Assembly (NCBI RefSeq): GCF_024802625.1
Contig: NZ_CP103371.1
Coordinates: forward strand, 1,736,001-1,800,000
Source: Massilia sp. H6
GTDB lineage: Bacteria > Pseudomonadota > Gammaproteobacteria > Burkholderiales > Burkholderiaceae_D
Direction of reading: 5' to 3'
DNA: 64,000 bases
Shown piece by piece: positions 1,921 to 64,000 of the stretch (positions within the stretch are counted from its first letter, which is position 1; every line of letters begins with the position of its first letter). Both the position numbers and the translations under genes were made by a program. The notes beneath the pieces are model-generated. The model saw only the letters and a program-made list of their open reading frames with translations. It searched no databases and was not told the origin of the DNA.

Positions 1921-2035
1921 GGTCTCTTCCTGGGGGGCGGGCCTTGTCCTGGCTCGACAAACATTGTCCACCCGTTAAATGGTTGACCCCAGTGTACGGA
2001 TCGCTCTATATATTCCAAACTACGGAGAATTCATT

Positions 2036-2062
2036 TGCTTATATGCGTAACTTGAATAAGCA
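2036..2062. promoter_or_regulatory. Inverted repeat in the cysI-cysB divergent promoter region, candidate CysB operator
   Basis: Perfect 7-bp arms TGCTTAT (2036-2042) and ATAAGCA (2056-2062) with a 13-bp spacer lie in the AT-rich part of the 214-bp gap between cysI and cysB. A T-N11-A-type palindrome with TTAT/ATAA arms is what LysR regulators, including CysB, commonly bind. The position between the two genes fits autoregulation and activation of cysI. Binding is inferred, not shown. Confidence 0.55.
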
Positions 2063-2134
2063 TCTTAAAATGTCGCCTGATGCAGGATTTGCAAGCCATC
2101 GCCACCAGAATAATCAAAAGAACAACACACCTTC

Positions 2135-3073
2135 ATGAATCTTCACCAACTGCGCTTCGTGCGCGAGGCCGTCCGCCAAAACTACAACTTGACCGATGCG
2201 GCCAAGTCGCTGTTCACCTCCCAGCCGGGAGTGTCGAAAGCCATCATCGAACTCGAAGAAGAGCTCGGCGTCGACATCTTCACCCGCCATGGCAAGCGCA
2301 TCCGCGGGTTGACCGAGCCGGGGCGACTGGTGCTGCAGTCTGTCGAGCTGATCATGCAGGAGATCGAAAGCCTCAAGCGCATCGGCAAGGAATACGCGGC
2401 CCACGATAGCGGCAGCTTCACCATTGCCACCACCCATACCCAGGCCCGCTACATGCTGCCCAGGGTGGTGCAGGCCTTCATGGTGAAATACCCGAAGGTG
2501 CGCTTGTCGCTGTTGCAGGGAAACCCGAAGCAGATCGCCGACATGGTCAAGAACGACCAGGCCGACCTGGCCATCGCCACCGAATCGATCGCCGCCATCG
2601 ATGGCTTGATCAGCTTGCCCTGCTACCAGTGGGAGCACGTGCTGGTGGTGCCGCACGAACACCCGCTGACACGTTCGAAGGCGGTGTCGCTCGAAGAGAT
2701 CGCCAGTTACCCGGTGATTACGTATGATGCGGCCTTTGCCGGACGCAGCAAGATCGACCATGCCTTCGGCTTGCGCAGCCTGAAGCCGGACGTGCTGCTC
2801 GAAGCGATCGATGCCGACGTCATCAAGACCTATGTCGAACTGGGCATGGGCGTGGGCATCATCGCCGGCATGGCCTTCGATCCGGAACGCGACCGCAACC
2901 TGCGCGCAATTCCCGTCGGGCAATTGTTTGGCATGAATATCTCGCGGGTGGCGATCAAGCAGGGCGCTTATCTGCGCAGCTATGTCTATACTTTCATCGA
3001 ACTGCTGGCGCCTACGCTCAACCGCGACATGGTCGAGTCGGCAATGCGCGGCGGCGAGAACTATGAGCTTTAA
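2135..3073 (+). CDS. cysB: LysR-type regulator CysB
   Basis: A 312-residue LysR-family regulator. The N-terminal winged helix-turn-helix (residues about 1-60: MNLHQLRFVREA..., TDAAKSLFTSQPGVSKAI, HGKRIRGLTEPG) matches the CysB/Cbl subgroup, followed by a periplasmic-binding-protein-like effector domain (about 90-300). CysB activates sulfate assimilation genes in response to O- or N-acetylserine. Its divergent position to the sulfite reductase gene and the DUF934 gene strongly supports the assignment. Length (about 310) is standard. The closely related regulator Cbl/SsuR is an alternative but context favours CysB. Confidence 0.9.
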   Translation: MNLHQLRFVREAVRQNYNLTDAAKSLFTSQPGVSKAIIELEEELGVDIFTRHGKRIRGLTEPGRLVLQSVELIMQEIESLKRIGKEYAAHDSGSFTIATTHTQARYMLPRVVQAFMVKYPKVRLSLLQGNPKQIADMVKNDQADLAIATESIAAIDGLISLPCYQWEHVLVVPHEHPLTRSKAVSLEEIASYPVITYDAAFAGRSKIDHAFGLRSLKPDVLLEAIDADVIKTYVELGMGVGIIAGMAFDPERDRNLRAIPVGQLFGMNISRVAIKQGAYLRSYVYTFIELLAPTLNRDMVESAMRGGENYEL

Positions 3074-3104
3074 TCACGACGAACCGAGAACCAAGGAACA
3101 CCCC

Positions 3105-3773
3105 ATGAGCACCAACCCAGTCGCGGACTTTTTCACGGCCATCGCTGACCACTACGACAGCCAGTTCCACGACGAAGCCGACGAAGACCGCCAGGACGAC
3201 CTCGACGACGTGGCCGAACAGGTCACCGAACTGCTGCGCGGGCATACCGTGCTGGAACTGGGCTGCGGCACCGGCTACTGGACCGACGTGCTGGCCGAGA
3301 GCGCCAAATCGGTGATCGCCACCGACATCAGCGAAGCAATGGTCGATGTCGCGCGCGAGCATGGCGGCGACCACGAGAACGTGCTGTACCGCGTGGTCGA
3401 TGCACTCGACGTTCCGGCCAACATCGGCGGCGACGAAAAAATCAGCGCCGTGTTCGCGGGATTCCTGTGGTCGCACCTGCGCCGCGAGCAGCAGGACGCT
3501 TTCCTGGCCGGGCTGCGCGCGCGCATCGGCAAGGATGCGCTCCTGGTACTGATCGACGACGTCTACATCGAGGGCGTGAGCCCGACCGTCTGCCGCACCG
3601 ATGCGCAGGGCAACACCTGGGCGCAGTTCATCGATGCCGAAGGCAAGCGCCATGAGCTGCCAAAGAACTACCCGACCGACAGCGCGCTGCGCAAGCGCCT
3701 CGGCAGTGCGGTACGCGAGATCAAGATCGGGCGCTGGGATTCGTGCTGGGCGCTGACCTGCCGCCTGAAGTAA
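3105..3773 (+). CDS. Class I SAM-dependent methyltransferase
   Basis: A 222-residue cytoplasmic methyltransferase. Motif I for S-adenosylmethionine is LELGCGTGYW at about residues 50-59, followed by an acidic strand end (VIATDIS) and a post-I region typical of the Methyltransf_25/11 fold. The substrate is unknown. The start at 3105 is chosen because AAGGAA precedes it by 8 bases; the open frame extends back into cysB without a ribosome site. It lies 31 bp after cysB on the same strand and may share its transcript. A strong hairpin follows the gene. Confidence 0.8.
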   Translation: MSTNPVADFFTAIADHYDSQFHDEADEDRQDDLDDVAEQVTELLRGHTVLELGCGTGYWTDVLAESAKSVIATDISEAMVDVAREHGGDHENVLYRVVDALDVPANIGGDEKISAVFAGFLWSHLRREQQDAFLAGLRARIGKDALLVLIDDVYIEGVSPTVCRTDAQGNTWAQFIDAEGKRHELPKNYPTDSALRKRLGSAVREIKIGRWDSCWALTCRLK

Positions 3774-3814
3774 GCCAGCGGCGGTAAGCGCCGGCGCGGT
3801 CCGCTTCGGGCTGC

Positions 3815-3854
3815 CCAAACAAACACTGCCGCGAATGCGGCAGTGTTTGTTTGG
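3815..3854. terminator. Bidirectional intrinsic terminator between converging genes
   Basis: An 18-bp perfect stem (3815-3832 with 3837-3854) with a GAAT loop. The outer part is A/T rich (CCAAACAAACACTG and complement), giving A- and T-rich flanks for both directions. It sits between the methyltransferase and the converging symporter gene. Confidence 0.85.
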
Positions 3855-3867
3855 CGGGCAGCTTGGC

Positions 3868-5349
3868 TCAGCCGATGATGTCGGCCTTGGCCGGATCGCC
3901 CGACTTCTGCTTGTCCAGCGCTACGCGCTGCTCCCAGAAATGCGCGTTCTTGATGCCCAGCGCGGCCGGGTCGAACACCGGGTCCTTGCCCAGCTTTTTC
4001 TGGGCTTCGTAGTCGCGCAGGCACTTGAACGCCACGTCGCGCATCAAGAGAATGGCGATCAGGTTCAGCCAGGCCATCAGGCCAACCCCCAGGTCGCCCA
4101 GCGCCCATGCCACGTCGGCGGTCTTGAGCGCGCCGTAGATGGTCGCGCCGATCATGGCCAGCTTGAGCAGGACACCCATCCACGGCCGCTTGGTGGTGCG
4201 GTTCAGGTAGGCGATATTGGTTTCGGCGATGTAGTAGTAGGCCACGATGGTGGTGCCCGCGAAGAACATCAGGGCAATCGCGACGAACATCGAGCCGAAA
4301 CCCGGCAGCACGTTTTCCAGCGCGGTCTGGACATAGCCCGGACCCGAGGCAACGCCCTGGACGCCGACGAACATCGGGGTGCCGTCAGGCGCTTCGACGT
4401 TGTACTGACCGGTAATCAATAGCATGAAGGCGGTAGCCGAGCACACGAACAGGGTGTCGATATACACCGAGAAGCCCTGCACCAGGCCTTGCTTGGCCGG
4501 GTGGCTCACTTCCGCGGCCGACGAGGCGTGCGGGCCGGTACCCTGGCCGGCTTCGTTCGAGTACACGCCGCGCTTGACGCCCCACATGATGGCCATGCCG
4601 ATGATGGCGCCGAATGCGGCGTCGGTACCGAAGGCAGACGTGAAGATCAGGCTCAGGACGCCTGGCAGTTTCTCGAGGTTCATGGCGATGATCGCGCAGG
4701 CCACCAGAATATAGCCCAGTGCCATGAAGGGCACCACGAACTCGGCAAAGCGCGCGATGCGCTTGACGCCGCCGAAGATGATAAAGGCCAGTACCGCAGC
4801 GAGCACCACGCCGGTATAGGCGGTGTCGACGCCGGCCGCGGTCTTGAGGCTTTCGGCCATCGCGTTGGCCTGTACGCCTGGCAACAGCACGCCGGTGGCG
4901 AGGATGGTGGTGATCGCAAACACGACTGCATACCACTTGATGCCCAGGCCTTTCTCGATATAAAAGGCCGGGCCGCCACGGAACTGCTTGTCGACCGATT
5001 CCTTGTACACCTGGCCCAGGGTCGATTCCACGAAGGCCGAGCTGGCGCCGAGGAAGGCCACCATCCACATCCAGAACACCGCGCCCGGTCCGCCGAAGGT
5101 GATGGCAGTGGCCACGCCAGCGATGTTGCCGGTGCCGACACGCCCGGCCAGGGTCATGGTCAGCGCCTGGAAGGACGAGACGCCCTGGTCGGAGCTTTTT
5201 CCCTTCCACATCAGGCGCAGCATTTCACCGAAGTGGCGCACCTGCAGGAAGCGCGAGCGGATGGAAAAATACAGGCCTGCGCCCAGGCACAGCGCGATCA
5301 GCGCCGGACTCCAGACGACACCGTTGATGGCAGTGACCAACTCGTTCAT
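3868..5349 (-). CDS. Alanine/glycine:sodium symporter (AGCS family)
   Basis: A 493-residue inner-membrane transporter of the Na+:alanine/glycine symporter family (AgcS/DagA/AlsT). The family signature appears as AGRVGTGNIAGVATA near residue 68, and about 10-11 hydrophobic segments span the protein, including a WGVKRGVYSNEAGQGTGPHASSAA stretch characteristic of the family's substrate-binding region. It would take up alanine or glycine using the sodium gradient. It is monocistronic: a terminator lies downstream and a 150-bp gap separates it from the next gene. Exact amino-acid preference cannot be read from the sequence. Confidence 0.9.
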   Translation of the reverse strand: MNELVTAINGVVWSPALIALCLGAGLYFSIRSRFLQVRHFGEMLRLMWKGKSSDQGVSSFQALTMTLAGRVGTGNIAGVATAITFGGPGAVFWMWMVAFLGASSAFVESTLGQVYKESVDKQFRGGPAFYIEKGLGIKWYAVVFAITTILATGVLLPGVQANAMAESLKTAAGVDTAYTGVVLAAVLAFIIFGGVKRIARFAEFVVPFMALGYILVACAIIAMNLEKLPGVLSLIFTSAFGTDAAFGAIIGMAIMWGVKRGVYSNEAGQGTGPHASSAAEVSHPAKQGLVQGFSVYIDTLFVCSATAFMLLITGQYNVEAPDGTPMFVGVQGVASGPGYVQTALENVLPGFGSMFVAIALMFFAGTTIVAYYYIAETNIAYLNRTTKRPWMGVLLKLAMIGATIYGALKTADVAWALGDLGVGLMAWLNLIAILLMRDVAFKCLRDYEAQKKLGKDPVFDPAALGIKNAHFWEQRVALDKQKSGDPAKADIIG

Positions 5350-5501
5350 TTACTTTGTTCCCCGTAGCAAGCAATCGCAGGTGGTAGCGCCTGCGTTCAT
5401 GTGATCGATCATGGCCGGAAACGCTGCCCGGCCGCTCGTGGGGTACAAAGATACCTGAAGAGTTAATTGATTCCTATCCTTATTTTTGCAGCGGGCCGGG
5501 C

Positions 5502-5918
5502 TCAGCGCAGCCGGATCGCGACCGGGGTGGTGCCATCGCGCACCTCGATGGCGGCATCGTCGAAACCCGGCGGCCCGAAGCGGCCGGCGGCGGCGCGGCT
5601 AAAGCCGTAATTCTCGCGTGGAATGCCGATGAAATTGCGGTCCAGCTCGCCATTCTCGTTTTCGTCCTGGTAGGCCAGCACGGCCCAGGTACCAAGCGGT
5701 ATGTCCTGCAGGCTGGCCACCACCTCGGCGGCCTGGGCCGGCACCGAGCTACTGTAGAGGCATTGCTTGAGGAAGCGCTCGCGGTCGCAGACGGCGACGT
5801 TGACCTTGCCTTTGCCGGCGGCTACGCCACTGATCCGTACTTCGAGGGTCGCGCTCGAGGCCGGCATGGCCGCCAGCAGCAGTGCGCCGCCCAGCAGGGA
5901 TGTGAATGCAAATCGCAT
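5502..5918 (-). CDS. Secreted DUF2141 domain protein
   Basis: A 138-residue protein with an obvious Sec signal peptide (about residues 1-22, ending PASSA) and a DUF2141 beta-sandwich. The family's calcium-like DENENGELD segment and the GIPRENYGFS motif are present. No function is established; DUF2141 proteins often lie next to carotenoid or outer-membrane genes. Here it is divergent from crtZ across a 122-bp gap, so the two may share regulation. Two cysteines (in AVCDRERFLKQC) could form a disulfide in the periplasm. Confidence 0.85.
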   Translation of the reverse strand: MRFAFTSLLGGALLLAAMPASSATLEVRISGVAAGKGKVNVAVCDRERFLKQCLYSSSVPAQAAEVVASLQDIPLGTWAVLAYQDENENGELDRNFIGIPRENYGFSRAAAGRFGPPGFDDAAIEVRDGTTPVAIRLR

Positions 5919-6040
5919 GGTATTCCTTTCGTGAATCGGGTTGTGTACCGTCGCTGACCCGCACGCCAGCGCGCCTTGCGGCGCGGGGCCGGGTGGGTAT
6001 GGTAGGCTCTGGCCATCGTGTTCACAGGCCTGTCATTTCC

Positions 6041-6580
6041 ATGTTGCTCAACACTTTCATTGTCGTGCTGACCGTCGTGCTGATGGAGCTGTTTTCCATC
6101 GTGGCGCACAAGCACGTGATGCACGGCTTCGGCTGGGGCTGGCACAAGTCGCACCACGAGCCGCGTACGGGCTGGTTCGAAAAGAACGACCTGTACGCCG
6201 TGGTGTTCGCGGGCGTGGCCATTGCGCTGATCTGGTTCGGCACCGAGGGCGCCCACCCGCTCGAATGGATCGGCGCCGGCATGACCGCCTATGGCCTGCT
6301 GTATTTCGTCGCCCACGATGGCCTGGTGCACCGGCGCTGGCCGTTCAAGGTGACCCCGCGCAGCGGCTACCTCAAGCGCCTGTACCAGGCCCACCGCATG
6401 CACCATGCGGTCGAGGGCAAGGACGGTGCGGTGTCCTTCGGCTTCTTGTATGCGCCGCCCGTGGCCAGCCTCAAACGGCAGCTGCATGCGCTGCATGGGG
6501 GGCGCTTGCCGCGTCACCCGGACGCTGCCACAGCGCCGCCGGACGCGCCGGCAGCGGACGCGCGCGAACGCGCGAGCTGA
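6041..6580 (+). CDS. crtZ: Beta-carotene 3-hydroxylase CrtZ
   Basis: A 179-residue membrane di-iron hydroxylase that converts beta-carotene to zeaxanthin through beta-cryptoxanthin. The eight-histidine signature is visible as HKHVMH, HKSHH, HDGLVH and HRMHHA. Three or four hydrophobic segments place it in the inner membrane. I use the ATG at 6041, the start of the conserved core; earlier in-frame codons would overlap the divergent DUF2141 gene. Its last 110 bases overlap the 3' end of crtB on the other strand, so its extra Pro/Ala-rich tail is antisense to the crtB tail. Together with crtEXYIB it completes zeaxanthin synthesis. Confidence 0.92.
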   Translation: MLLNTFIVVLTVVLMELFSIVAHKHVMHGFGWGWHKSHHEPRTGWFEKNDLYAVVFAGVAIALIWFGTEGAHPLEWIGAGMTAYGLLYFVAHDGLVHRRWPFKVTPRSGYLKRLYQAHRMHHAVEGKDGAVSFGFLYAPPVASLKRQLHALHGGRLPRHPDAATAPPDAPAADARERAS

Positions 6581-54675: not shown

Positions 54676-56817
54676 TTATGCAGTCTGCGCGAAGCTATCG
54701 ACCTGGATGACCTTGTCGAGGGCGACGAGAAATGCCAGCGCCTGGGGCGCGCTCGATTCGGCAGCGATCTCTTCGAACGGGCGACGCTGGCGGATCGCCT
54801 TGGCCAGCCGCTCGCTTTCTTGCTCGCCGATTTCCTGTGCCAGGAGCAGCAGGTCTCGGAGGTCGCGCATGCCGCCGCGGGCAGGCGCCTCGACTTCCGG
54901 ACACAGCAGGGCAATGACCGGCGCCTGGCGCAACAGCGCGGCAATTTCCAGCTTGTCGTGGTCGCGAAGCGCATGCAGCGGGCGCAGTCCACCCAGCGCC
55001 ACCTTGGCCGCTACCCGCAGCAGCGGGTTGTGCAGGTTGTCGAACAGGGCGTGCAGCGCCGAACTGGCAAGCCAGATCTGGCGCCGCGCCGCGGCGCGCG
55101 CAATCACGGCCATCTCTTCATTCTCGTGCTGGGCATAGCGCCACAGGCAGGCGCTGGCCATGTACAGATGCGACAAGACGTCTCCCAGGCGCGAAGAGAT
55201 CAGTTCCATCCGTTTGAGTTTGCCGCCGAGCACACCCATGCACATGTCGCTGGCAAACGCGAATTTCGCGGCCAGGCTGGCAATGGTGCGCGCCTCGCGC
55301 TCGAGCGCGCGCGGCGGCTTGCCCACCAGCGGCGCCTTGACGATGCTGCGCCAGGCGTTGCGCGCCAGGTGGGCGCCGTGTCCGAGCAGGGCGCGGCCCA
55401 GCGCCGCACCGTCCTGGCGCTCCACCGCCTCGATTTCCGACAGCACGAACGGATGGCAGCGAATCGCCCCCTGGCCGAAAATGATCAGGGCGCGCGTGAG
55501 GATGTTGGCGCCTTCGACCGTGATCGCGATCGGCGTATTGCGGTAGGCCCCGGACAACAGGTTCGACGGCCCGGCGCAGATGGCCTTGCCGCCAAGGATA
55601 TCCATGCCATGGTTGATCGCGCGGCGTCCCGCTTCGGTGACGTGGTATTTCAGGATGGCGCTGGCGACGCTGGGCTGCTCGCCCTGGTCAAGGATGCTCG
55701 CCGTCAGGCGCCGCGCCGAGTCGCTCGCATACAGGTCGACCGCCATCTCGGCCAGCAGGGCGGCAATATTGTGGAAGCGCTGGATCGGCAAGCCGAACTG
55801 GTTGCGCAGGCCGGCGTAGCCGTTCGCTACGTACAACGAGCTTTGCTGGAGCGCCGAACCGAGCGCCGGCAGCGAGATCGCACGCCCCGCGGCCAGGCAC
55901 TGCATCAGCATGCTCCACCCTTTGCCGATATTGTCGGCCCCGCCGATGACCCAGTCGAGCGGAATGAACATGTCGCTCGCCTCTACCGGGCCGTTCATGA
56001 AGGCGCTGTCCATCGGGCGGTGGCGCGCGCCGATCACCAGGCCCGGATGCGGAACCGGAATTAGTGCACAGGTAATGCCCAGGTCTTGCCGGTCTGCGGG
56101 CAGGGCCGGATCGATGGCATTGAACGAGATGCCGACCACGGTGGCGACCGGCGCCAGCGTGATATAGCGTTTCTTGAACGTCAGCGCAAAGCCCCGCGTC
56201 ATGACGCCATTCCATTCGCGTTCGACCAGCACGCCGACGTCGGTCATCGAGGCGGCGTCCGAGCCGGCGTAGGGCGAGGTCAGGGCGAAGCAGGGCAGTT
56301 CCTGGCCGCTGGCCAGGCGCGGCAGATAATGGTCTTTCTGCGCCTGCGTGCCATAGCGCAGCAGCAGTTCGGCCGGCCCCAGCGAGTTCGGCACCATCAC
56401 CGTCACGGCGGCGGGAATGTTGACGCTGGCAATGCGCGTGACCACTTGCGCGTGGACCGTGTGACTGAACTCCAGGCCACCGTAGGCGCGCGGAATGATC
56501 ATGCCGAAGAAACCATGCTGGCGCAGGTAATCCCAGACTTCTGCCGGCAGGTCGCCGGCCTGGTCGATCTCGAAATCGTCGAGCATGCGGCACAGGGCCG
56601 GCACCTGCTCGTCCAGAAACGCCTGCTCGTGCGCCTGCGGGCGCGCTGGCGCAATTGCCGCCAACGCCGAAAAATCGATCTTGCCTTCGAAAATACGGCC
56701 CTCGAATCCCACCGTCCCGGACTCGAGCGCGGCACGCTCGGTGGCGCCAATCGTCGGCAAGGCTTTCTTGAACACCGGTAACATCGTCCGTCCGAGCAGG
56801 GCTGCCAGCATAGTCAT
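54676..56817 (-). CDS. fadE: Acyl-CoA dehydrogenase (FadE-type, with DUF1974)
   Basis: A 713-residue FAD enzyme for the first step of fatty-acid beta-oxidation. The N-terminal, middle and C-terminal acyl-CoA dehydrogenase domains (about 70-460) contain FFGMIIPRAYGG, FALTSPYAGSDA and ITVEGANILTRALIIFGQGAIRCHP. The C-terminal DUF1974 extension (about 470-710) is specific to FadE. FadE is normally about 810 residues and starts with two membrane helices; this shorter version lacks a clear N-terminal pair. Single gene with 57-78-bp gaps on both sides. Confidence 0.88.
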   Translation of the reverse strand: MTMLAALLGRTMLPVFKKALPTIGATERAALESGTVGFEGRIFEGKIDFSALAAIAPARPQAHEQAFLDEQVPALCRMLDDFEIDQAGDLPAEVWDYLRQHGFFGMIIPRAYGGLEFSHTVHAQVVTRIASVNIPAAVTVMVPNSLGPAELLLRYGTQAQKDHYLPRLASGQELPCFALTSPYAGSDAASMTDVGVLVEREWNGVMTRGFALTFKKRYITLAPVATVVGISFNAIDPALPADRQDLGITCALIPVPHPGLVIGARHRPMDSAFMNGPVEASDMFIPLDWVIGGADNIGKGWSMLMQCLAAGRAISLPALGSALQQSSLYVANGYAGLRNQFGLPIQRFHNIAALLAEMAVDLYASDSARRLTASILDQGEQPSVASAILKYHVTEAGRRAINHGMDILGGKAICAGPSNLLSGAYRNTPIAITVEGANILTRALIIFGQGAIRCHPFVLSEIEAVERQDGAALGRALLGHGAHLARNAWRSIVKAPLVGKPPRALEREARTIASLAAKFAFASDMCMGVLGGKLKRMELISSRLGDVLSHLYMASACLWRYAQHENEEMAVIARAAARRQIWLASSALHALFDNLHNPLLRVAAKVALGGLRPLHALRDHDKLEIAALLRQAPVIALLCPEVEAPARGGMRDLRDLLLLAQEIGEQESERLAKAIRQRRPFEEIAAESSAPQALAFLVALDKVIQVDSFAQTA

Positions 56818-56895: not shown

Positions 56896-57981
56896 CTAGC
56901 GCAAGCTCAGCGCAGCGATAAACGCAACGATCGCAGCCAGCGGCAGCGTCACCACCCATGACAACAGCACGTTTTTCAGGGTCGCGCGGTCGATCGTCGC
57001 GGCGCCCGTGCCAACGCCGGCAATGGCACCGACGGCCACATGGGTGGTCGATACCGGCAGCGCGACACTGCTGGCGAGCAGTACCATGCCAGCGGTGATC
57101 AGGTTGGCCGTGGTGCCCTGCGCATTGTCCAGGCGCGCCAGGCGCTTGCTCATGGTTTGTGCGACCCGGCGCGCGTACAGCAGGCCGCCGGCGGCCATCG
57201 CCACGGCAATGATGAGCATCGAGTCGCGCGCGCCAGTGACGCTGGCCGCCAGCAGCAGCGCGGCCAGCTTGGGCGTGTCGTTGACGCTGCGTGCAAAGCA
57301 GATCAGGGTCGCCGACGAGACATGCACCAGGTGGGCACCGGCGCGCAGCCCGATGCGCGCCGGTGCCGGCAGCGCGTCGCAGCTGCCTTGTTCGCCCATC
57401 ACCAGTCTGGCCGGTGCCGGCAAGGCGCCCTGCATGGCGATGGCGCCGCCGGGTGCCGGCTGGGGCGCGCCCGGCACCAGGCACAGGCAGTCCTTGTCGG
57501 CCAGGCGGCGGCCAATGCCGCGGTAGGCCAGCAGCCCGAGTGCGGCGGCCAGCAGCGGACTGAGTAACAGTGGCAAGAAGAAGCTCGAGCCCAGGCGTGC
57601 CAGCGCAACCGCGCCTGCCGGCGCGGCCAGTCCGGCCCCGATCAGGCCGCCGATCAGCGCATGGGTTGTCGAGACCGGAAATCCGGCCCGGGTCGCCACC
57701 AGGATGGTCAGCGCCGCGCCTGCCGCGACACTCTGGATGAACCAGGGCGCCGCCGCGATCGCGTCCGGCACCAGCCCGCGTCCCGAGAATTGTTTCACCA
57801 GGCCGTCGGCGAGGTAAAGCGAGGCGATGCTGCCCGCGACGGTGGCCACCGTCGCCAGGGTCAGCGCCTGGCGATAAGTGAGCGTGTCGGCGCCCCAGAC
57901 GGTGGCAAACCCCTTGAAGTTGTCGTTGGCGCCGTTGCCGAAGGCAAGCAAAACGACCACCAGAACGAAGGCGTACTCCAT
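56896..57981 (-). CDS. PiT-family inorganic phosphate transporter
   Basis: A 361-residue inner-membrane transporter with two inverted PiT repeats: GNGANDNFKGFATVW (about 16-30) and RSVNDTPKLAA, plus two FPVSTTHA/LPVSTTHV motifs. About ten membrane segments. It would couple phosphate uptake to protons or sodium; PiT proteins also admit arsenate. It is last in the arsenosugar-like operon, 5 bp after arsM, which makes a role linked to arsenate/phosphate handling likely but unproven. Confidence 0.9.
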   Translation of the reverse strand: MEYAFVLVVVLLAFGNGANDNFKGFATVWGADTLTYRQALTLATVATVAGSIASLYLADGLVKQFSGRGLVPDAIAAAPWFIQSVAAGAALTILVATRAGFPVSTTHALIGGLIGAGLAAPAGAVALARLGSSFFLPLLLSPLLAAALGLLAYRGIGRRLADKDCLCLVPGAPQPAPGGAIAMQGALPAPARLVMGEQGSCDALPAPARIGLRAGAHLVHVSSATLICFARSVNDTPKLAALLLAASVTGARDSMLIIAVAMAAGGLLYARRVAQTMSKRLARLDNAQGTTANLITAGMVLLASSVALPVSTTHVAVGAIAGVGTGAATIDRATLKNVLLSWVVTLPLAAIVAFIAALSLR

Positions 57982-57986
57982 GGCGC

Positions 57987-59024
57987 TTAGCAGCAGGGCG
58001 CGGCGGAGGCCGCGTCCGGGCCGTCAAAGGGGAGTTCGCCGCCGCAGCCCGGGAACAGGCCGTAGTGCCGGCTGAAGTCGCCAATGAAATCGAAATGCCC
58101 GTGCAGGCGGGTGTCGTGCAGCATGCGCCAGGTGTTGCCGCATACCGGGAACACGCGCCCGGTCTCGATCCGGTGATGCTTGTCGAGTGTAAAGTGCTGC
58201 GCCTGGCCGGGAATGCTGCCACGGTAGACGACGGCCTGGCCATAGTCTTCGCAGGCAGGTTCCAGGCCGGCCAGCTTGAACAGGCGGTAGGTGGCCGAAT
58301 AAAAGCCGACGCCGCCGGTCCGTTCGGCCAGCGCCGGATTGGTGACAACCAGGGGCCGGTCTTCGAGCAGGCGCGGATCGTCGAAGCCATGCTGCTTGGC
58401 CAGGGTGAGAAAATCGTTCCAGTACAGGGCGCCGCCCAGGCATTCGCCATACAGGAGCGGGTCGTCGCGTACCGCTGCCGGCACCCGGCGGTCGGCGTAG
58501 ACGTCGGAAAAATAGAACTCGCCGCCGGGTTTGAGCAGGTGCTGCACGCCGCGCAGCACGGCCGCCTTGTCGGGCGAGAGGTTGACCACGCAGTTGGAAA
58601 CAATCACGTCGAAGCTCGCCGCTTCCAGGCCGAGTTCGTCGAGGCGCTCGATATAGCCGTGCAGGAAGCGCACGTTGTCGTAGCCAACGCTGTCGCGGTG
58701 GTAACCGGTGTGGCGCTGGGCCACTGCCAGCTGCTCCTCGGTCATGTCGACCCCGACCACTTCGCCGCTGGCGCCGGCCAGCTGCGACAGCGCGTACACG
58801 TCGCGCCCCGAACCGCAGCCGAGGTCGAGGATGCGGCAGCCTTCGAGTAGCGGCGGGCATACCAGGCCGCAGCCGTAGTAGCGCTCCATGACTTCCGGGT
58901 GGATCCGCGCCAGCAGCGGTTTCAACCAGCCGGGCACGGCGCTGATATCGCAGCAGGCGCTGGTCTGGAGATCGGCAGTGGACTGCAGGGTGTGGCCGTA
59001 GTATTGCTGGACGATGTCGTGCAT
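57987..59024 (-). CDS. arsM: Arsenite S-adenosylmethionine methyltransferase (ArsM-like, arsenosugar type)
   Basis: A 345-residue cytoplasmic methyltransferase. SAM motif I is ILDLGCGSGRD (about 80-90). The three cysteines needed to hold As(III) in ArsM enzymes have counterparts: ERYYGCG, VSNCVVNLSPDK and a later Cys (in FPVCGN). The C-terminus ends in CC, with further cysteine pairs (SACC at about 22-25). AGGAG precedes the ATG. It is 16 bp from the FAD oxidoreductase gene and 5 bp from the PiT gene. Dimethylated arsenic is the precursor for arsenosugars; the flanking glycosyltransferase genes favour that role over simple volatilisation. Confidence 0.85.
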   Translation of the reverse strand: MHDIVQQYYGHTLQSTADLQTSACCDISAVPGWLKPLLARIHPEVMERYYGCGLVCPPLLEGCRILDLGCGSGRDVYALSQLAGASGEVVGVDMTEEQLAVAQRHTGYHRDSVGYDNVRFLHGYIERLDELGLEAASFDVIVSNCVVNLSPDKAAVLRGVQHLLKPGGEFYFSDVYADRRVPAAVRDDPLLYGECLGGALYWNDFLTLAKQHGFDDPRLLEDRPLVVTNPALAERTGGVGFYSATYRLFKLAGLEPACEDYGQAVVYRGSIPGQAQHFTLDKHHRIETGRVFPVCGNTWRMLHDTRLHGHFDFIGDFSRHYGLFPGCGGELPFDGPDAASAAPCC

Positions 59025-59040
59025 GTTGTCTCCTGTGTGA

Positions 59041-60168
59041 TCATGCGGGCCGTGGCCCGCCGTTGTAACGGGCGAGGAAGCGGCGGTCGATCCGCTCCTT
59101 CCAGCGCCATACCCATTTTCCCTGCCATGCGAACGGCCCCCAGGCGGCGATCGCGTGGCGAGCGCCGGTGCCGAGCAAGAACAGGTTGCGCCGCTGCGGC
59201 CGGTAAGGCGCGAGCGGCAGCTCATGCAATGCTGCGTGCAGGTTGTGCGCCAGAACCGGCCCCATGCGTACGGCGAAGACGCCGGCTTTCGGCACCGGCG
59301 CCGGCAGCCCGGCGCAGTCGCCGGCGGCAAATATGTCCGGATGCGATACCGAGCGCAAGGTCGCATCGACACGGATGAAACCGGCTTCGTCGAGTGCTAG
59401 TCCGGCCGCGCCCGGCCAGGCGTGGGGCGCAGCGCCGGTGGCCCACAGCACGACGTCGGCGTCCAGCCGGCGGCCGTCGCATCCGCGCACCCCCATGGCG
59501 TCGACTTCAGCCGCTTCGAAGCCGCGCACGACCTCGATATCATGGGCGCGCAGGTGGCGCTGCACCAGCCTGGCCGCGCGTGCGGCCAGCGCCGGCAACA
59601 GGCCCGCGCCGCTGGTGGCCAGCACGCAGTCGAGACCGACCGCTGGCGCCCAGGCGGCCAGTTGGTGGCGCACGGCCAGCAAGGCTTCGATCCCCGCCGC
59701 GCCGGCGCCGACCATCACCACCCGCAACCGGGCGCCGGCCGGCAGCGCCTGCACCTGGTGGCGCAGCCTTTCCCAGTGCGCCTCGAGCCGCTCCAGCGGC
59801 CGCATCGCCACCAGCGGGGTGCCGGCGCCGGCCAGCGGCAGGGCGGTCGAGCCGATATCGAGCGACAGGAGGTCGTAGGGCAGGCGCGCGCCGTCGGCCA
59901 GTTGCACCGTCCGGGCGTCGGCGTCGATGGCGCTGGCCAGGCCGCGCACGAAGCGCGCGCCGGCGGCGCGGCACAGCTGTTCGGCGTCGATGCAGCACTC
60001 GTCCCAGTCGTAGTGCCCGGCCATCCATCCCGGCACCATGCCGGAATACGGGGCCAGGGACGCGGGCGACACCAGGGTGACCTCGAGATCGCTACTTGCG
60101 CGCGTGCACAGGTCGCGCAGCACTTGCGCATGCGCATGGCCAGCGCCGATGAGTAGCAGGCGCTTCAT
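59041..60168 (-). CDS. FAD-dependent pyridine nucleotide-disulfide oxidoreductase (SelD N-terminal type, TIGR03169-like)
   Basis: A 375-residue flavoprotein resembling the NDH-2-like module fused to or paired with selenophosphate synthase in many bacteria. LLIGAGHAHAQVLRDL (about 5-20) is the FAD motif with the family's HAH signature, PYSGMVPGWMAGHY is diagnostic, VVMVGAGAAGIE binds NAD(P), and FAAGDCA is the second FAD motif. The SelD domain itself is absent. It overlaps DUF3047 by 4 bp and is 16 bp from arsM. Substrate unknown; a redox step in arsenic or selenium chemistry is inferred from context. Confidence 0.8.
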   Translation of the reverse strand: MKRLLLIGAGHAHAQVLRDLCTRASSDLEVTLVSPASLAPYSGMVPGWMAGHYDWDECCIDAEQLCRAAGARFVRGLASAIDADARTVQLADGARLPYDLLSLDIGSTALPLAGAGTPLVAMRPLERLEAHWERLRHQVQALPAGARLRVVMVGAGAAGIEALLAVRHQLAAWAPAVGLDCVLATSGAGLLPALAARAARLVQRHLRAHDIEVVRGFEAAEVDAMGVRGCDGRRLDADVVLWATGAAPHAWPGAAGLALDEAGFIRVDATLRSVSHPDIFAAGDCAGLPAPVPKAGVFAVRMGPVLAHNLHAALHELPLAPYRPQRRNLFLLGTGARHAIAAWGPFAWQGKWVWRWKERIDRRFLARYNGGPRPA

Positions 60169-60905
60169 GGCGACGACGGGCCGGAGGCCGGCAAGAATTC
60201 GATATCGCCGAACCAGGCCAATGCCCGGCCCTTGGTGTTGTCGGTGTCGGTGGCCAGCGCCAGGCCGACCACATCGGGTGCTTCTTCGCCAAAGGCGGCG
60301 CGGAAATCGGCGCGCAGGTCGCGTGTCTCGGTGTGCCACTGTCCTTGTCCGGCGCTGCCGCTGCGTACCACCAGCATGCGTGCGCGGTCGGTATAGGCGT
60401 TGGCACGAATGGTGCCGACCGGCTGGCGGTTGTCCCAGACATAATTCAGGGCCGCTGTCGGGATCGACTGCCGATAGACCGATTCGGCCACCGCCATGCC
60501 GAGCCGGGTCGACAGCGACAGGCGCGCGCGCGGGTAGTCGAACAGCACATACACGCGCGCCGCGTAATCGTCGCCCGCCTTGCTGGTCATGTCGGCGCCG
60601 GCAACTGGCGCGGCAATTTTCCAGCGCCAGCGCAGCAAGGGGAAGCGGCGCGTGTCGACCCGCACTGTATAGGTCAGCGCCGACATGGCGTTGTCGGCCT
60701 CGGCCCGCAGTACCGGCGCGCCGCCATCGGCGACCAGGCTGTAGCGGGTGTCGGCCGCTTTCGGCGCGGGCCGCATCGGCCGCCAGTGCTCGATCGGGCC
60801 GCCCACGGTCATCTGCGAGAAGGGCGGCACGGCCGGCTGGGCGGCGGCGCCGGCCCCCACGCAGCACCCCAGCACCAGTGCCAGTGCCCTCGGCACGCGC
60901 ATCAT
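60165..60905 (-). CDS. Exported DUF3047 protein
   Basis: A 246-residue protein with a signal peptide (1-22, AGAAA) and a DUF3047 beta-sandwich: HWRPM, LRWRWKIAAPV, DDYAARVYVLFDYP, TALNYVWDN and GLALATDTDNTKGRALAWFGDIEFLP are family hallmarks. No function is established for DUF3047. It starts with two Met codons; the first (60905) gives a 4-bp overlap with the TIGR04282 gene. It also overlaps the FAD oxidoreductase by 4 bp, so it is embedded in the operon. Confidence 0.85.
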   Translation of the reverse strand: MMRVPRALALVLGCCVGAGAAAQPAVPPFSQMTVGGPIEHWRPMRPAPKAADTRYSLVADGGAPVLRAEADNAMSALTYTVRVDTRRFPLLRWRWKIAAPVAGADMTSKAGDDYAARVYVLFDYPRARLSLSTRLGMAVAESVYRQSIPTAALNYVWDNRQPVGTIRANAYTDRARMLVVRSGSAGQGQWHTETRDLRADFRAAFGEEAPDVVGLALATDTDNTKGRALAWFGDIEFLPASGPSSP

Positions 60906-61516
60906 GGCAGCCACCCGGACGGTAGGTGCACCAGGTCGGCCGGTTCGTCGACATCGTGCAGCGTCGCCAGTTCGAGCAGGCGCAGGCCCAGGGTGTCGGC
61001 GCGGGCGCGGGTCTGCGCCATGACCGCGTCGGTGCTCCAGGCCACGTCGGCGAACAGTCCGGGCGCCGGCACCGACAAGCCGATGAGCACATAGCCGCCG
61101 TCGCTGGCCGGCGCGGCCACCACATCGTGGGTGCGCAGGCTGGCGCCGGCCTGGCGCAGCACGCCGGCGTCCAGGCCGGGCGCATCGGTGCCGATAAGGA
61201 TCACCGAGCGGTGCCGTTCCAGGCCGCGTGCGCTCGCGCGCGCCATGCGCTGGCCAAGATCGCCTTCGCCCTGGTCGCTCAGGTGAACAGCATGGCGCTG
61301 GTGCGCCAGCGCAAACTGCGGATGCCCGGTATCCGGTGCGCAGCACAGCTCGATCGGGCCGAGCGCGGCGGCCCGCGCTGCCTCGAGCGTGTGCTCGAGC
61401 ATGCGCGCGGCCAGGCGCGCCGCGCCGTCGGGACCGAGTCTTGCGGCCAGGCGCGTCTTGGCGTAGCCAGCCACAGGCGCCTTGGCGAAAATAATCAGGA
61501 GGCAGTCGGATGTCAT
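60902..61516 (-). CDS. TIGR04282-family arsenosugar-type glycosyltransferase
   Basis: A 204-residue GT-A-like transferase. IIFAKAPVAGYAKTRLA (about 7-23) is the hallmark of the TIGR04282 family, with LIGTDAPGLDAGVL later. Members are found beside the radical SAM protein ArsS, ArsM and TIGR04283, and are thought to build the sugar part of arsenosugars. Start at ATG 61516 overlaps the TIGR04283 gene by 4 bp. The reaction is inferred from family and context. Confidence 0.88.
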   Translation of the reverse strand: MTSDCLLIIFAKAPVAGYAKTRLAARLGPDGAARLAARMLEHTLEAARAAALGPIELCCAPDTGHPQFALAHQRHAVHLSDQGEGDLGQRMARASARGLERHRSVILIGTDAPGLDAGVLRQAGASLRTHDVVAAPASDGGYVLIGLSVPAPGLFADVAWSTDAVMAQTRARADTLGLRLLELATLHDVDEPADLVHLPSGWLP

Positions 61517-62208
61517 CGGCGGTATCGTTGTGCAAGCAGTTCGGGGCTGGCGCCGAGCCAGTATTGCAGGCGCAGGCGCCACATCAGCAAGATGGTGCGC
61601 CACAGCCCATTGGTTTCCCATCGCCGTCCCGAGGTCGTCACGCGCGCGGCCAGGCACAGGGGGGAGGACAGCCGTTTCAGGCGTCGCGACAATTCGATGT
61701 CTTCCATCAGGGGTTGCGCCGGGAAACCGCCGGCGTCCTGGTAGGCGGCCCGGGTGGCGAACATGGCCTGGTCGCCGGTGGCGATGCCGCTCAGGCGCGA
61801 GCGCAGGTTAATGAAGGCGCCGACCACGCGCAGCATCGGCGCGCGCCCGCTGATGCGCACGTCGAAGCGCCCCCACACATGCGCGCCAGGCGCCAGGCCG
61901 TCGAGAATCAGGCGGTCGGCATTTTCTGGCAACAAGGTGTCGGCATGCAGGAACAGCAGCACGGCGCCGCGCGCGGCGCGCGCCCCGGCCTGCATCTGCA
62001 GCGCGCGCCCGCGCGCGCTGGCCAGCACCTGGTCGGCCAGCGGCGCGGCCAGCACGGCGGTGGCGTCGCTGCTGCCGCCGTCGGCGACGATCACCTCCAC
62101 GCCGCGTTGGCGCAGCGGCGCCAGCGCTAGCAGGCAAGCTTCGATGCCAGCCGCTTCGTTCAGGGCCGGCACGATGATCGACAGGCGGGGTGCGTGCCTG
62201 GCACTCAT
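61513..62208 (-). CDS. TIGR04283-family arsenosugar-type glycosyltransferase
   Basis: A 231-residue GT2-family transferase. LSIIVPALNEAAGIEACL (about 9-26), VIVADGGSSDAT and LFLHADTLLP are GT2/TIGR04283 signatures; AMFATRAAYQDAGGFPAQPLMEDIELSRRLKR is the acceptor region. It overlaps the oxidoreductase gene upstream and TIGR04282 downstream by 4 bp each. Probably transfers a sugar in arsenosugar assembly together with TIGR04282. Confidence 0.88.
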   Translation of the reverse strand: MSARHAPRLSIIVPALNEAAGIEACLLALAPLRQRGVEVIVADGGSSDATAVLAAPLADQVLASARGRALQMQAGARAARGAVLLFLHADTLLPENADRLILDGLAPGAHVWGRFDVRISGRAPMLRVVGAFINLRSRLSGIATGDQAMFATRAAYQDAGGFPAQPLMEDIELSRRLKRLSSPLCLAARVTTSGRRWETNGLWRTILLMWRLRLQYWLGASPELLAQRYRR

Positions 62209-64000
62209 GCGTCGCCGCCGAGTCCGTGACCACGGCGCCAGCTGTGGAAGCGCCGCGCCAGGGCCAGCAGGCGTTCGGGCGCATGGGCGCGCTTCCAGGC
62301 GCCCGCGGCGTATTTGTTGGCTTCCGACATGGTCGGGTAGACATGGATGGTGCCGAGGATCTTGTTCAGGCCGATGTTGTGCTTCATCGCCAGCACATAT
62401 TCGGCCAGCATCTCGCCGGCGTGATCGGCCACGATGGCCACTCCCAGAATCTTGTCGCTACCCTTCTTGGTCAATACCTTGACGAAGCCGCGCTCGGCGC
62501 CGTCGGTGATTGCCCGATCGAGTTCGCCGATATCGTAGCGCGTCACCTCGACCTCGACCTCCTGCTCGCGCGCTTCGTCCTCGGACAAGCCGACCCGCGC
62601 CGCCTCGGGGGCAGTGAAGGTACACCACGGAATGACACGGTAATCGGCCTTGAATCGCTTGACCACGCCAAACAGGCTGTTAACGGCCGCATACCAGGCC
62701 TGGTGCGCGGCAGTGTGAGTGAACTGGTAAGGACCGGCCACATCGCCGCAGGCATAGATGTTCGGAAAGCGCGTCTGCAGGAACTCGTCGGTATCGACGG
62801 TTTTCTTCGCTGTCAGGGCGATACCGAGCGCTTCCAGCCCGAAGCCCTCGGTGCGGGCCACCCGGCCAACCGCGCACAGCAGGGCGTCGAAGGGCAGTTC
62901 GCTCTCGCCCTGGGCGTGGCGCACCAGCAGGCGCTTGCCGTTTTCATCCTGGATGCAGCGAACTGCTTCGTGACCGGGCAGGATGCGCACGCCATCGCCC
63001 TGCATGGCCGTGGCCACCGCCTGCGCCACATCCACGTCCTCGCGGGGCAGGATGCGCTCGCCGCGTTCGACCTGCATGACCGTCGAACCGAGGCGGGCAA
63101 AGGCCTGGGCCAGTTCGGAGCCGATCGGCCCGCCGCCGAGCACGATCAGCCGCTCGGGCAGGGCAGTGAGCTCCCACAGCGAGTCCGAAGTATAGAAACC
63201 GGTCTCTTTCAGGCCGGGAATCGGCGGCACCATGGCCTGGGCGCCGCTGGCGATCACGATCGAGCGGGTGCGCAGGCGGCGGCCATCGACCTCGACTTCC
63301 CATGGCGAGACGATGGTGGCCTTGCCCTGCACCACGTCGACCCCAAGCCCGGTATAGCGTGCGACCGAATCGTTGGGCGCGATGCGCGCGACAACGCGCT
63401 GCACGCGCGCCATGACGGCGCCGAAGTCGACCTGTGGGTCGAGCGCGCCAACGCCGAAGCTGTCGGCACGCCTGGCCTGGCTGACGAAGGCGGCGCTGCG
63501 GATCAGCGCCTTGGAAGGCACGCAGCCGGTATTGAGGCAGTCGCCACCCATCTTGCCCGCTTCGACCAGCGCTACCTTGGCTTTCACCGCAGCGCCAATG
63601 TAGGACGTAACCAGTCCGGCTGCGCCGGCGCCGATGACGACCAGGTTGTAGTCGAAGGCAGCGGGTTTCTTCCAGCCGCGGTAAAGCTTGCGCGTTCTGA
63701 CCATGCCAAGCCCGAACTTGGCCACGATCGGCAGCAGCCCGAGCACGGCAAAAGAGGCGAGCACGGCGGGCGAAAGGATGCCGGCCAGGCTGTCGATACC
63801 GGCCAGCTGGGTGCCGGCGTTGACGTAGGCGATGGTGCCCGGCAGCATGCCGAGCTGGCTGACCCAGTAATAGGTCCAGGCCCGGATCGAGGTCAAGGCC
63901 ACCACCAGGTTGGTCAGGAAAAACGGAAACAGTGGCACCAGGCGCAAGGTCAGCAGGTAAAAAGCGCCATCCCTGGCGACATTCTTGTCGATGGCGTCGG
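62205..64000 (-). CDS. TVP38 membrane domain fused to FAD-dependent disulfide oxidoreductase (5' end outside window)
   Basis: At least 598 residues are visible; the true start lies beyond base 64,000. The first ~130 visible residues are the end of a TVP38/TMEM64 (SNARE-associated) membrane domain (GAFYLLTLRLVPLFPFF...). The rest is a mercuric-reductase/dihydrolipoamide-dehydrogenase-like enzyme: VVIGAGAAGLVTSYIGA, the redox-active GGDCLNTGCVPSKALI, a NAD(P) fold VLGGGPIGSELAQAFARLG, FAD motif ACGDVAGPYQFTH and the dimerisation domain. It overlaps TIGR04283 by 4 bp. Substrate unknown; the fusion brings a thiol-redox enzyme to the membrane. Confidence 0.88.
   Translation of the reverse strand, partial: DAIDKNVARDGAFYLLTLRLVPLFPFFLTNLVVALTSIRAWTYYWVSQLGMLPGTIAYVNAGTQLAGIDSLAGILSPAVLASFAVLGLLPIVAKFGLGMVRTRKLYRGWKKPAAFDYNLVVIGAGAAGLVTSYIGAAVKAKVALVEAGKMGGDCLNTGCVPSKALIRSAAFVSQARRADSFGVGALDPQVDFGAVMARVQRVVARIAPNDSVARYTGLGVDVVQGKATIVSPWEVEVDGRRLRTRSIVIASGAQAMVPPIPGLKETGFYTSDSLWELTALPERLIVLGGGPIGSELAQAFARLGSTVMQVERGERILPREDVDVAQAVATAMQGDGVRILPGHEAVRCIQDENGKRLLVRHAQGESELPFDALLCAVGRVARTEGFGLEALGIALTAKKTVDTDEFLQTRFPNIYACGDVAGPYQFTHTAAHQAWYAAVNSLFGVVKRFKADYRVIPWCTFTAPEAARVGLSEDEAREQEVEVEVTRYDIGELDRAITDGAERGFVKVLTKKGSDKILGVAIVADHAGEMLAEYVLAMKHNIGLNKILGTIHVYPTMSEANKYAAGAWKRAHAPERLLALARRFHSWRRGHGLGGDA

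Follow-up and report, generated by a model that had tools for sequence, protein, structure and literature searches.

The locus considered here is a window of 64,000 nucleotides (the whole stretch of DNA analysed) from contig NZ_CP103371.1 of Massilia sp. H6, forward-strand positions 1,736,001-1,800,000, and the genes of interest occupy positions 56896-64000 of this window and continue past its end. Nine genes on the minus strand form one operon, encoding in turn a phosphorylase of the S-methyl-5'-thioadenosine phosphorylase family (MTAP), the radical SAM enzyme ArsS, a VTT-oxidoreductase fusion, TIGR04283, TIGR04282, DUF3047 and TIGR03169 proteins, the methyltransferase ArsM and a PiT transporter. 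We consider it likely that this is a nine-gene arsenosugar operon whose extra genes serve the pathway; the gene identities, operon structure and linkage come from sequence, and the chemistry is what we infer. The genes are as follows.

65356-66201 (window-equivalent, outside the window; L005:12356-13201), minus strand: MTAP-family phosphorylase, 281 amino acids; TIGR01694, 270.3 bits
64361-65323 (window-equivalent, outside the window; L005:11361-12323), minus strand: arsS, 320 amino acids; TIGR04167
62205-64000, on to 64364, minus strand: VTT (TVP38/DedA-type) membrane domain fused to an FAD disulfide oxidoreductase, 719 amino acids
61513-62208, minus strand: TIGR04283 family-2 glycosyltransferase, 231 amino acids; 274.6 bits, cut-off 182
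60902-61516, minus strand: TIGR04282/DUF2064 protein, 204 amino acids; 203.7 bits, cut-off 134
60165-60905, minus strand: DUF3047 protein, 246 amino acids; PF11249, 245.7 bits, cut-off 27
59041-60168, minus strand: TIGR03169 FAD/NAD(P) oxidoreductase, SelD N-terminal type, free-standing, 375 amino acids; 382.1 bits, cut-off 310
57987-59024, minus strand: ArsM-type As(III) methyltransferase, 345 amino acids; 347 bits to 5evj
56896-57981, minus strand: PiT/PHO4 transporter, GANDNFKG subfamily, 361 amino acids, last gene of the operon; PF01384, 190.5 bits, cut-off 33.7

A sequence-only reading of the window had described seven minus-strand genes at these coordinates, joined by ATGA overlaps at four junctions and separated by 16 and 5 bp at the other two; all of this was confirmed in the sequence, and the genes are intact. 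It was without arsS and the phosphorylase gene because both sit beyond the window end, and the radical SAM arsS that it expected past base 64,000 was indeed found there, scoring 456.2 bits against TIGR04167 (cut-off 300). A fifth ATGA overlap joins the VTT-oxidoreductase gene, which starts at window-equivalent 64364, to arsS, and the MTAP gene, its start codon picked by the AGGAA preceding the ATG, ends 32 bp before arsS. The cut-offs of the NCBIfam arsenosugar families TIGR04167, TIGR04282 and TIGR04283 were all three exceeded in the operon. The guanine-plus-cytosine content was 69% in the operon part of the window, 65% in the entire window and 64% in arsS-MTAP, values that are not a clear sign of recent transfer.

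The neighbourhoods of ArsS in other genomes were scored by tblastn at 61 loci, comprising the Massilia sp. H6 locus, 47 of 83 sites from an order sample (a single draw of 250 genomes of the order, 80 of which contained ArsS) and 13 sites from a phylum sample, in which 115 of 398 exceeded the ArsS cut-off. Loci were picked for within-contig position and diversity, and the counts are lower bounds, as some loci stop at contig ends. On the same strand as ArsS lay the oxidoreductase in 44 loci, TIGR04283 in 43, VTT and TIGR04282 in 42 each, DUF3047 in 22 and TIGR03169 in 20, followed by DUF547 (21), a metallophosphoesterase (18), ArsM (13), PiT (7), an extracytoplasmic function (ECF) sigma factor (7), an unnamed membrane protein (6) and MTAP (2); on either strand, MTAP was found in 7. 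Many of the 60 fetched loci shared the order ArsS-VTT-oxidoreductase-TIGR04283-TIGR04282-(DUF3047)-(TIGR03169)-(ArsM-PiT), with parts often absent or others inserted, and because this order recurs elsewhere the gene array goes beyond chance. Among named genomes the closest relatives are Massilia eurypsychrophila and M. psychrophila, in which the locus reads MTAP-ArsS-VTT-oxidoreductase-TIGR04283-TIGR04282-DUF3047-TIGR03169-ArsM. A further genome of the genus, G694, has an ECF sigma factor, MTAP, ArsS, VTT-oxidoreductase, TIGR04283, TIGR04282, DUF3047, ArsM and PiT, with no TIGR03169 match within its 20-kb locus.

Linkage with ArsS was then counted across the whole order sample, scoring the best 4 to 10 matches in genomes with many initial candidates, so that absence is not proof. 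The VTT-oxidoreductase fusion (at least 600 bits) was present in 71 of the 250 genomes, 68 with ArsS and 3 without; when the full span was required, 65 of 68 genomes carried ArsS. For TIGR03169 the figures were 74 genomes, 69 with ArsS and 5 without, or 59 of 64 once frames of at least 700 amino acids were set aside (the 719-amino-acid frame of Massilia sp. H6 being kept), and for DUF3047 they were 61 of 79. Twenty-four families contain ArsS genomes and the fusion is present in 22 of them. Each of the three proteins was associated with ArsS at Fisher p <1e-24, a value that ignores shared ancestry. The sequence-only reading had placed DUF3047, TIGR03169 and the TVP38-disulfide oxidoreductase in the pathway; the survey ties the first two to ArsS, and the membership of the third is upheld by the fusion counts. 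This linkage supports pathway membership for all three proteins, whose functions are predicted, and the extra genes of the operon very probably belong to the pathway. Some TIGR03169 matches sit in frames of approximately 750-900 amino acids, probably SelD fusions, mostly in ArsS-bearing genomes.

The route that we propose would begin with import of arsenate by PiT. After reduction of arsenate, ArsM would form dimethylarsenite and ArsS would attach the 5'-deoxyadenosyl group. The MTAP-type enzyme would phosphorolyse the resulting 5'-substituted adenosine to 5-deoxy-5-dimethylarsinoyl-alpha-ribose-1-phosphate, the CofC/FbiD-like TIGR04282 protein would convert this arsenoribose-1-phosphate to a nucleotide sugar, and TIGR04283 would place the sugar on an acceptor of the glycerol or phospholipid type to give a beta-riboside. 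The VTT domain may handle the lipid-linked product in the membrane and DUF3047 may act on or bind this product in the envelope, while arsenic or thiols may be held reduced by the disulfide oxidoreductase and the TIGR03169 protein; each of these last roles is tentative. The most extended version, in which a full sugar-nucleotide route leads to arsenosugar lipids, the VTT-oxidoreductase and an exported DUF3047 protein flip and handle the lipid in the envelope, and a dedicated PiT subfamily imports arsenate as if it were a nutrient, also for arsinothricin-type pathways, is speculative as a whole.

As the sequence-only reading had proposed for an ArsM-like enzyme with arsenic-binding cysteines, four cysteines of the methyltransferase (Cys 24, 52, 145 and 195) align to the arsenic methyltransferase 4kw7 and are kept, together with the vicinal 24-25 and C-terminal 344-345 cysteines, in 13 of 13 aligned sequences, own included. 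The protein scored 347 bits to the arsenite methyltransferase 5evj and 293 bits to 4kw7. Four conserved cysteines are required in As(III) methyltransferases (PMC8552651; papers given by PMC number are cited here from excerpts).

TIGR04282 had been called a glycosyltransferase in the sequence-only reading, and its profile matches, fold and motifs suggest a nucleotidyltransferase instead. The motifs KTRL (KTR), GxD, DGG and DxD are invariant or nearly so. A profile search of solved structures retrieved 3cgx (E 5e-39), 2-phospholactate guanylyltransferase 6bwg (4e-7) and 3-phosphoglycerate guanylyltransferase 7p97 (6e-5), of which 3cgx, deposited by structural genomics under the title 'putative nucleotide-diphospho-sugar transferase', settles nothing on function. 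The AlphaFold2 model (predicted local distance difference test score, pLDDT, 96) matched in Foldseek, in this order, 3cgx, 6bwg/6bwh (Rv2983), 7p97, 2i5e, and then CMP-Kdo synthetases and other nucleotidyltransferases, with no family-2 glycosyltransferase in the best 50 of 1566 matches. TIGR04282 is thus, with high probability, a CofC/FbiD-like nucleotidyltransferase. Since one paper labels a TIGR04282 gene fbiD (PMC8801600), the likeness to FbiD is already in existing annotation.

The substrate is a separate matter, and that TIGR04282 acts on an arsenosugar phosphate we regard as an even chance. It might instead activate the aglycone (glycerate or glycerol phosphate), because its CofC relatives use three-carbon phosphoacids: among solved relatives for which a substrate is named, the closest use phosphoenolpyruvate, phospholactate or 3-phosphoglycerate. 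Or it might be a glycosyltransferase, as its NCBI family name has it. Taken together these alternatives are less probable, though they are the strongest that we considered. The nucleotidyltransferase fold and motifs and the composition of the fold matches speak against a glycosyltransferase, and the phosphorylase of the operon would provide the very sugar-1-phosphate needed by a nucleotidyltransferase acting on the arsenosugar.

TIGR04283 distantly resembles glucosyl-3-phosphoglycerate synthase. It shares a single open frame with TIGR04282 in 2 of 40 and 1 of 32 loci (L048, L061, L154), as expected for consecutive steps. Family-2 glycosyltransferases invert, so TIGR04283 is presumably inverting, and natural arsenosugars have a beta linkage. 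If TIGR04283 does invert, passage from alpha-phosphate through alpha-NDP-sugar (nucleoside-diphosphate sugar) to beta-riboside would yield this natural linkage.

The PiT protein, at 46.1 bits, lies far under the cut-off of the PitA model NF033774 (800) and belongs to a subfamily with the motif GANDNFKG, found (E <=1e-30) in 7 of the 250 order genomes. Six of these have ArsS within approximately 8 kb. In the seventh, G599, PiT is represented by two fragments at the starts of contigs, one of which (L189, G599:C62, 58-675; neighbours 800-6430; the other locus being L190) stands in an arsinothricin-type locus with ArsL (683 bits, cut-off 450), an arsinothricin-type ArsM (ArsM2; 353 bits, cut-off 240), a major facilitator superfamily transporter, a second protein weakly similar to ArsM and a protein that we read as ATP-grasp-like. 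Organoarsenical genes are thus nearby in all seven genomes (six ArsS, one ArsL), and this 7/7 linkage ruled out an ordinary phosphate transporter placed by chance. As a pathway partner, which the sequence-only reading had made of it, PiT is linked to these loci but is an optional component, being absent from some related ones.

PiT proteins generally transport both phosphate and arsenate. The operon could accordingly be viewed as serving arsenic detoxification, with simple methylated arsenic or an exported glycerol arsenosugar as its end product and with a PiT that brings phosphate for phosphorolysis rather than arsenate. This is consistent with the dual specificity just mentioned, with the phosphate that the phosphorylase would consume and with the term phosphate/arsenate transporter applied to PitA in the arsinothricin paper (PMC8552651). 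We nevertheless think it rather unlikely, given the confinement of the subfamily to organoarsenical loci in our sample, including one in which no sugar genes were seen, a pattern better explained by arsenic supply than by a need for phosphate. Even so, the odds that PiT is an arsenate importer are about equal. A CxC in the central loop of PiT (window 57378-57490) is found in 8 of 9 full-length ArsM-linked members aligned, mostly with a further cysteine downstream, and is a possible trivalent-arsenic site.

ArsS is not expected to make methylthioadenosine, and for this reason an MTAP-type enzyme beside it is naturally read as cleaving the 5'-substituted adenosine that ArsS produces. Among 55 genomes of the genus, own included, ArsS, MTAP (E <=1e-40) and DUF3047 were found in the same two (Massilia sp. 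H6 and G694) and in 0 of the 53 others. In L098, L099, L100, L188 and the more distant L084, the MTAP gene immediately precedes ArsS and points the same way; in L041, L046, L054, L055 and L090 it is close to ArsS on the opposite strand. The protein scored marginally above the cut-off for PRK09136, methylthioinosine phosphorylase (223.3 bits, cut-off 223). Phosphorylases yield alpha-ribose-1-phosphate (PMC7226091), and adenine removal itself is not new, a nucleosidase having been proposed for it in the alga Dunaliella (PMC10456119).

The MTAP gene might also be an ordinary methylthioadenosine salvage gene that stands beside arsS by chance, in keeping with a score just 4.6 bits under the TIGR01694 cut-off of 274.85 and with the frequency of MTAP without ArsS in other families of the order: of the 36 genomes outside the genus in the same search, 32 had MTAP and 13 had ArsS, so that dedication of MTAP is visible only near the genus. 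Even within it, the pattern may reflect a single block gained or lost together. Hydrolytic removal of adenine, as in the algal proposal, would be a further way to dispense with phosphorolysis. We judge both improbable, given the presence of MTAP in the genus only alongside ArsS (2/2 against 0/53) and its position just before ArsS in five loci and close by on the other strand in five more. Phosphorolysis by the MTAP-type enzyme is quite likely a step of the pathway.

The membrane and redox proteins were analysed in the same way. The VTT-oxidoreductase contains the Pfam domains VTT_dom (80.7 bits, cut-off 33.9), Pyr_redox_2 and Pyr_redox_dim, and its closest solved relatives are lipoamide dehydrogenase and mercuric reductase. 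The redox-active CxxxxC of pyridine nucleotide-disulfide oxidoreductases is present in all 45 loci scored, that of Massilia sp. H6 among them. Identity with MerA was not supported, as TIGR02053 gave 380.8 bits against a cut-off of 454.45 and the C-terminal vicinal cysteine pair, a feature of MerA, was not seen by eye. DUF3047 has an apparent N-terminal signal sequence (by eye), and its alignment displays invariant tryptophans with acidic GDD and DxDxT motifs. By sequence it had no match among solved structures up to E = 1. Its AlphaFold2 model is a beta-sandwich (pLDDT 92) whose Foldseek matches, with query-length template-modelling (TM) scores <0.5, are to CFAP20-like axoneme chains, glucuronyl C5-epimerase, carbohydrate-binding modules and others; because these are weak and mixed, DUF3047 is given no biochemical function, and that it binds something sugar-like in the envelope is no more than a guess.

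Linkage was also viewed from the side of DUF3047, using the best 80 DUF3047 loci from an alignment scan of named genomes with up to 9 kb per flank. The oxidoreductase was present in 50 of these loci, VTT in 44, TIGR04283 in 43, TIGR04282 in 35 and ArsS in 19. VTT and oxidoreductase occupy one frame in 39 of 43 ArsS loci as against 21 of 43 DUF3047 loci, and in Nitrospirota they are frequently separate adjoining genes. Fifty whole genomes (the ArsS-linked L098, L099 and L100 plus 47 of the 61 unlinked loci) were checked for ArsS, which was found in 43, including 40 of the 47 with an ArsS-free DUF3047 locus; this last figure has no matched control from DUF3047-free Nitrospirota. The DUF3047-side and order surveys overlap, since several genomes are shared (ArsS coordinates are identical for G667 and G567).

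The weakest alternative, that the known core of ArsM, ArsS, TIGR04282 and TIGR04283 makes the arsenosugar alone while DUF3047, VTT-oxidoreductase and TIGR03169 form a co-travelling envelope or redox-stress module, could call upon the many Nitrospirota DUF3047 loci that adjoin VTT and oxidoreductase with no ArsS in the stretch examined, upon the 18 of 79 order genomes that have DUF3047 without ArsS and upon the absence of the fusion (>=600 bits) from 12 of the 80 ArsS genomes, but it is improbable in view of the ArsS found elsewhere in those 40 of 47 genomes and of its absence in just 3 of 71 fusion and 5 of 74 TIGR03169 genomes.

Several further observations weigh against an arsenosugar operon in which all nine genes serve the pathway. 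The linkage counts cover related genomes, many of them metagenome-assembled, and are uncorrected for shared ancestry. A distance from ArsS of 15 kb or less was seen for only 26 of the 114 DUF3047 matches and 23 of the 77 TIGR03169 matches, which makes the link in many cases one of genomes rather than of neighbourhoods, and DUF3047 is absent from both the ArsS locus and the genome search of a genome of the same family, G585. No PiT match was found in the two Massilia loci nor in an Undibacterium locus. The oxidoreductase is under cut-off for each of the 25 NCBIfam families listed. ArsM is under the NCBIfam ArsM cut-offs and scored 78 bits against AsSugarArsM (NF038099; cut-off 400); because NF038099 is an exception-type model, another ArsM lineage is possible.

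As regards regulation, the 3.8 kb upstream of MTAP hold a DUF302 gene in divergent orientation, together with genes for a response regulator and a histidine kinase. The link to ArsR that the sequence-only reading had suggested looking for did not appear: no ArsR was recognised within this stretch, among open reading frames of at least 70 amino acids or in a six-frame look for an ArsR-type cysteine motif, although a distant or unusual ArsR is possible. The spacer before MTAP gave no promoter-like match and one terminator-like stem, and the scan downstream of PiT gave one promoter-like match and no terminator. An acyl-CoA dehydrogenase gene on the same strand (window 54676-56817) begins 78 bp after PiT, and no terminator was found between them in the scan. 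In L036 (approximately 7 kb off), L045, L046, L054, L067, L068, L076 and L188, ArsS has an ECF-type sigma factor upstream of it, which may be a regulator in loci with no visible ArsR.

Other ArsS loci contain further genes. A calcineurin-like metallophosphoesterase (e.g. L051:8552-9511; PF12850, 28.6 bits, cut-off 27), in 18 of the 61 loci but absent from the Massilia sp. H6 operon, might be an alternative dephosphorylation step. A DUF547 protein with export apparent by eye (e.g. L057:13766-14584) is present in 21, mostly between the oxidoreductase and TIGR04283. The membrane protein that follows ArsS in six loci (L088:10448-11842, L040, L048, L049, L081, L086) was initially taken for a sodium:solute symporter, but Pfam gave no family at E <=1e-5. 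Metagenome bins labelled Bordetella parapertussis (L102, L109, L117) hold arsenosugar-type genes, and the labels are probably wrong.

For the bacterial route from the ArsS product to finished arsenosugars and arsenolipids, the operon supplies candidate enzymes that can be tested: for removing adenine, activating the sugar and transferring it, as well as for redox, membrane handling and the uptake of arsenic. It would assign roles to DUF3047 and to the VTT-oxidoreductase fusion. A PiT subfamily restricted to organoarsenical loci would, if true, mean that some bacteria import arsenic on purpose. A search of the open-access literature, outside which most subscription papers fall and in which TIGR03169 was not itself a search term, returned among the matches listed no paper that connects arsenosugars with DUF3047, TVP38 or an enzyme of MTAP type. 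Nor did those matches describe the operon in its wider form, the phosphorylase linked to it or the genome-wide linkage of the oxidoreductases, DUF3047 and PiT to arsenosugar genes, which appear to be new. The ArsM-ArsS chemistry is already known, as is the naming of TIGR04282 and TIGR04283 as arsenosugar genes by NCBI, through which the pathway core is known as well.

Compared with known systems, TIGR04282 has in common with the CofC/FbiD phospho-acid guanylyltransferases (6bwg, 7p97, 2i5e) the fold, the KTRL motif and the acidic motifs, and it differs from them in its low identity (20-24% in the fold search) and in its score against CofC TIGR03552, 56.3 bits against a cut-off of 105. The NCBIfam name 'glycosyltransferase' is at odds with the fold and motifs of the family. 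The arsinothricin cluster arsQML of Burkholderia gladioli GSRB05, as excerpted from PMC8552651, likewise combines ArsM with a radical SAM enzyme and has pitA nearby; it differs in that its radical SAM enzyme is ArsL and its product another. The PiT subfamily of our operon also adjoins ArsL and ArsM in G599. The arsenosugar pathway of Synechocystis sp. PCC 6803 employs ArsM and ArsS, as in the operon (Xue et al. 2019, cited in PMC8552651; Cheng et al. 2021, on ArsS, cited in PMC12159101), and according to the excerpt of PMC8552651 the work on it covers the initial steps. In contrast to what these excerpts describe for Synechocystis, Massilia sp. H6 carries ArsM and ArsS in one operon with TIGR04282, TIGR04283, the phosphorylase, VTT-oxidoreductase, TIGR03169, DUF3047 and PiT.

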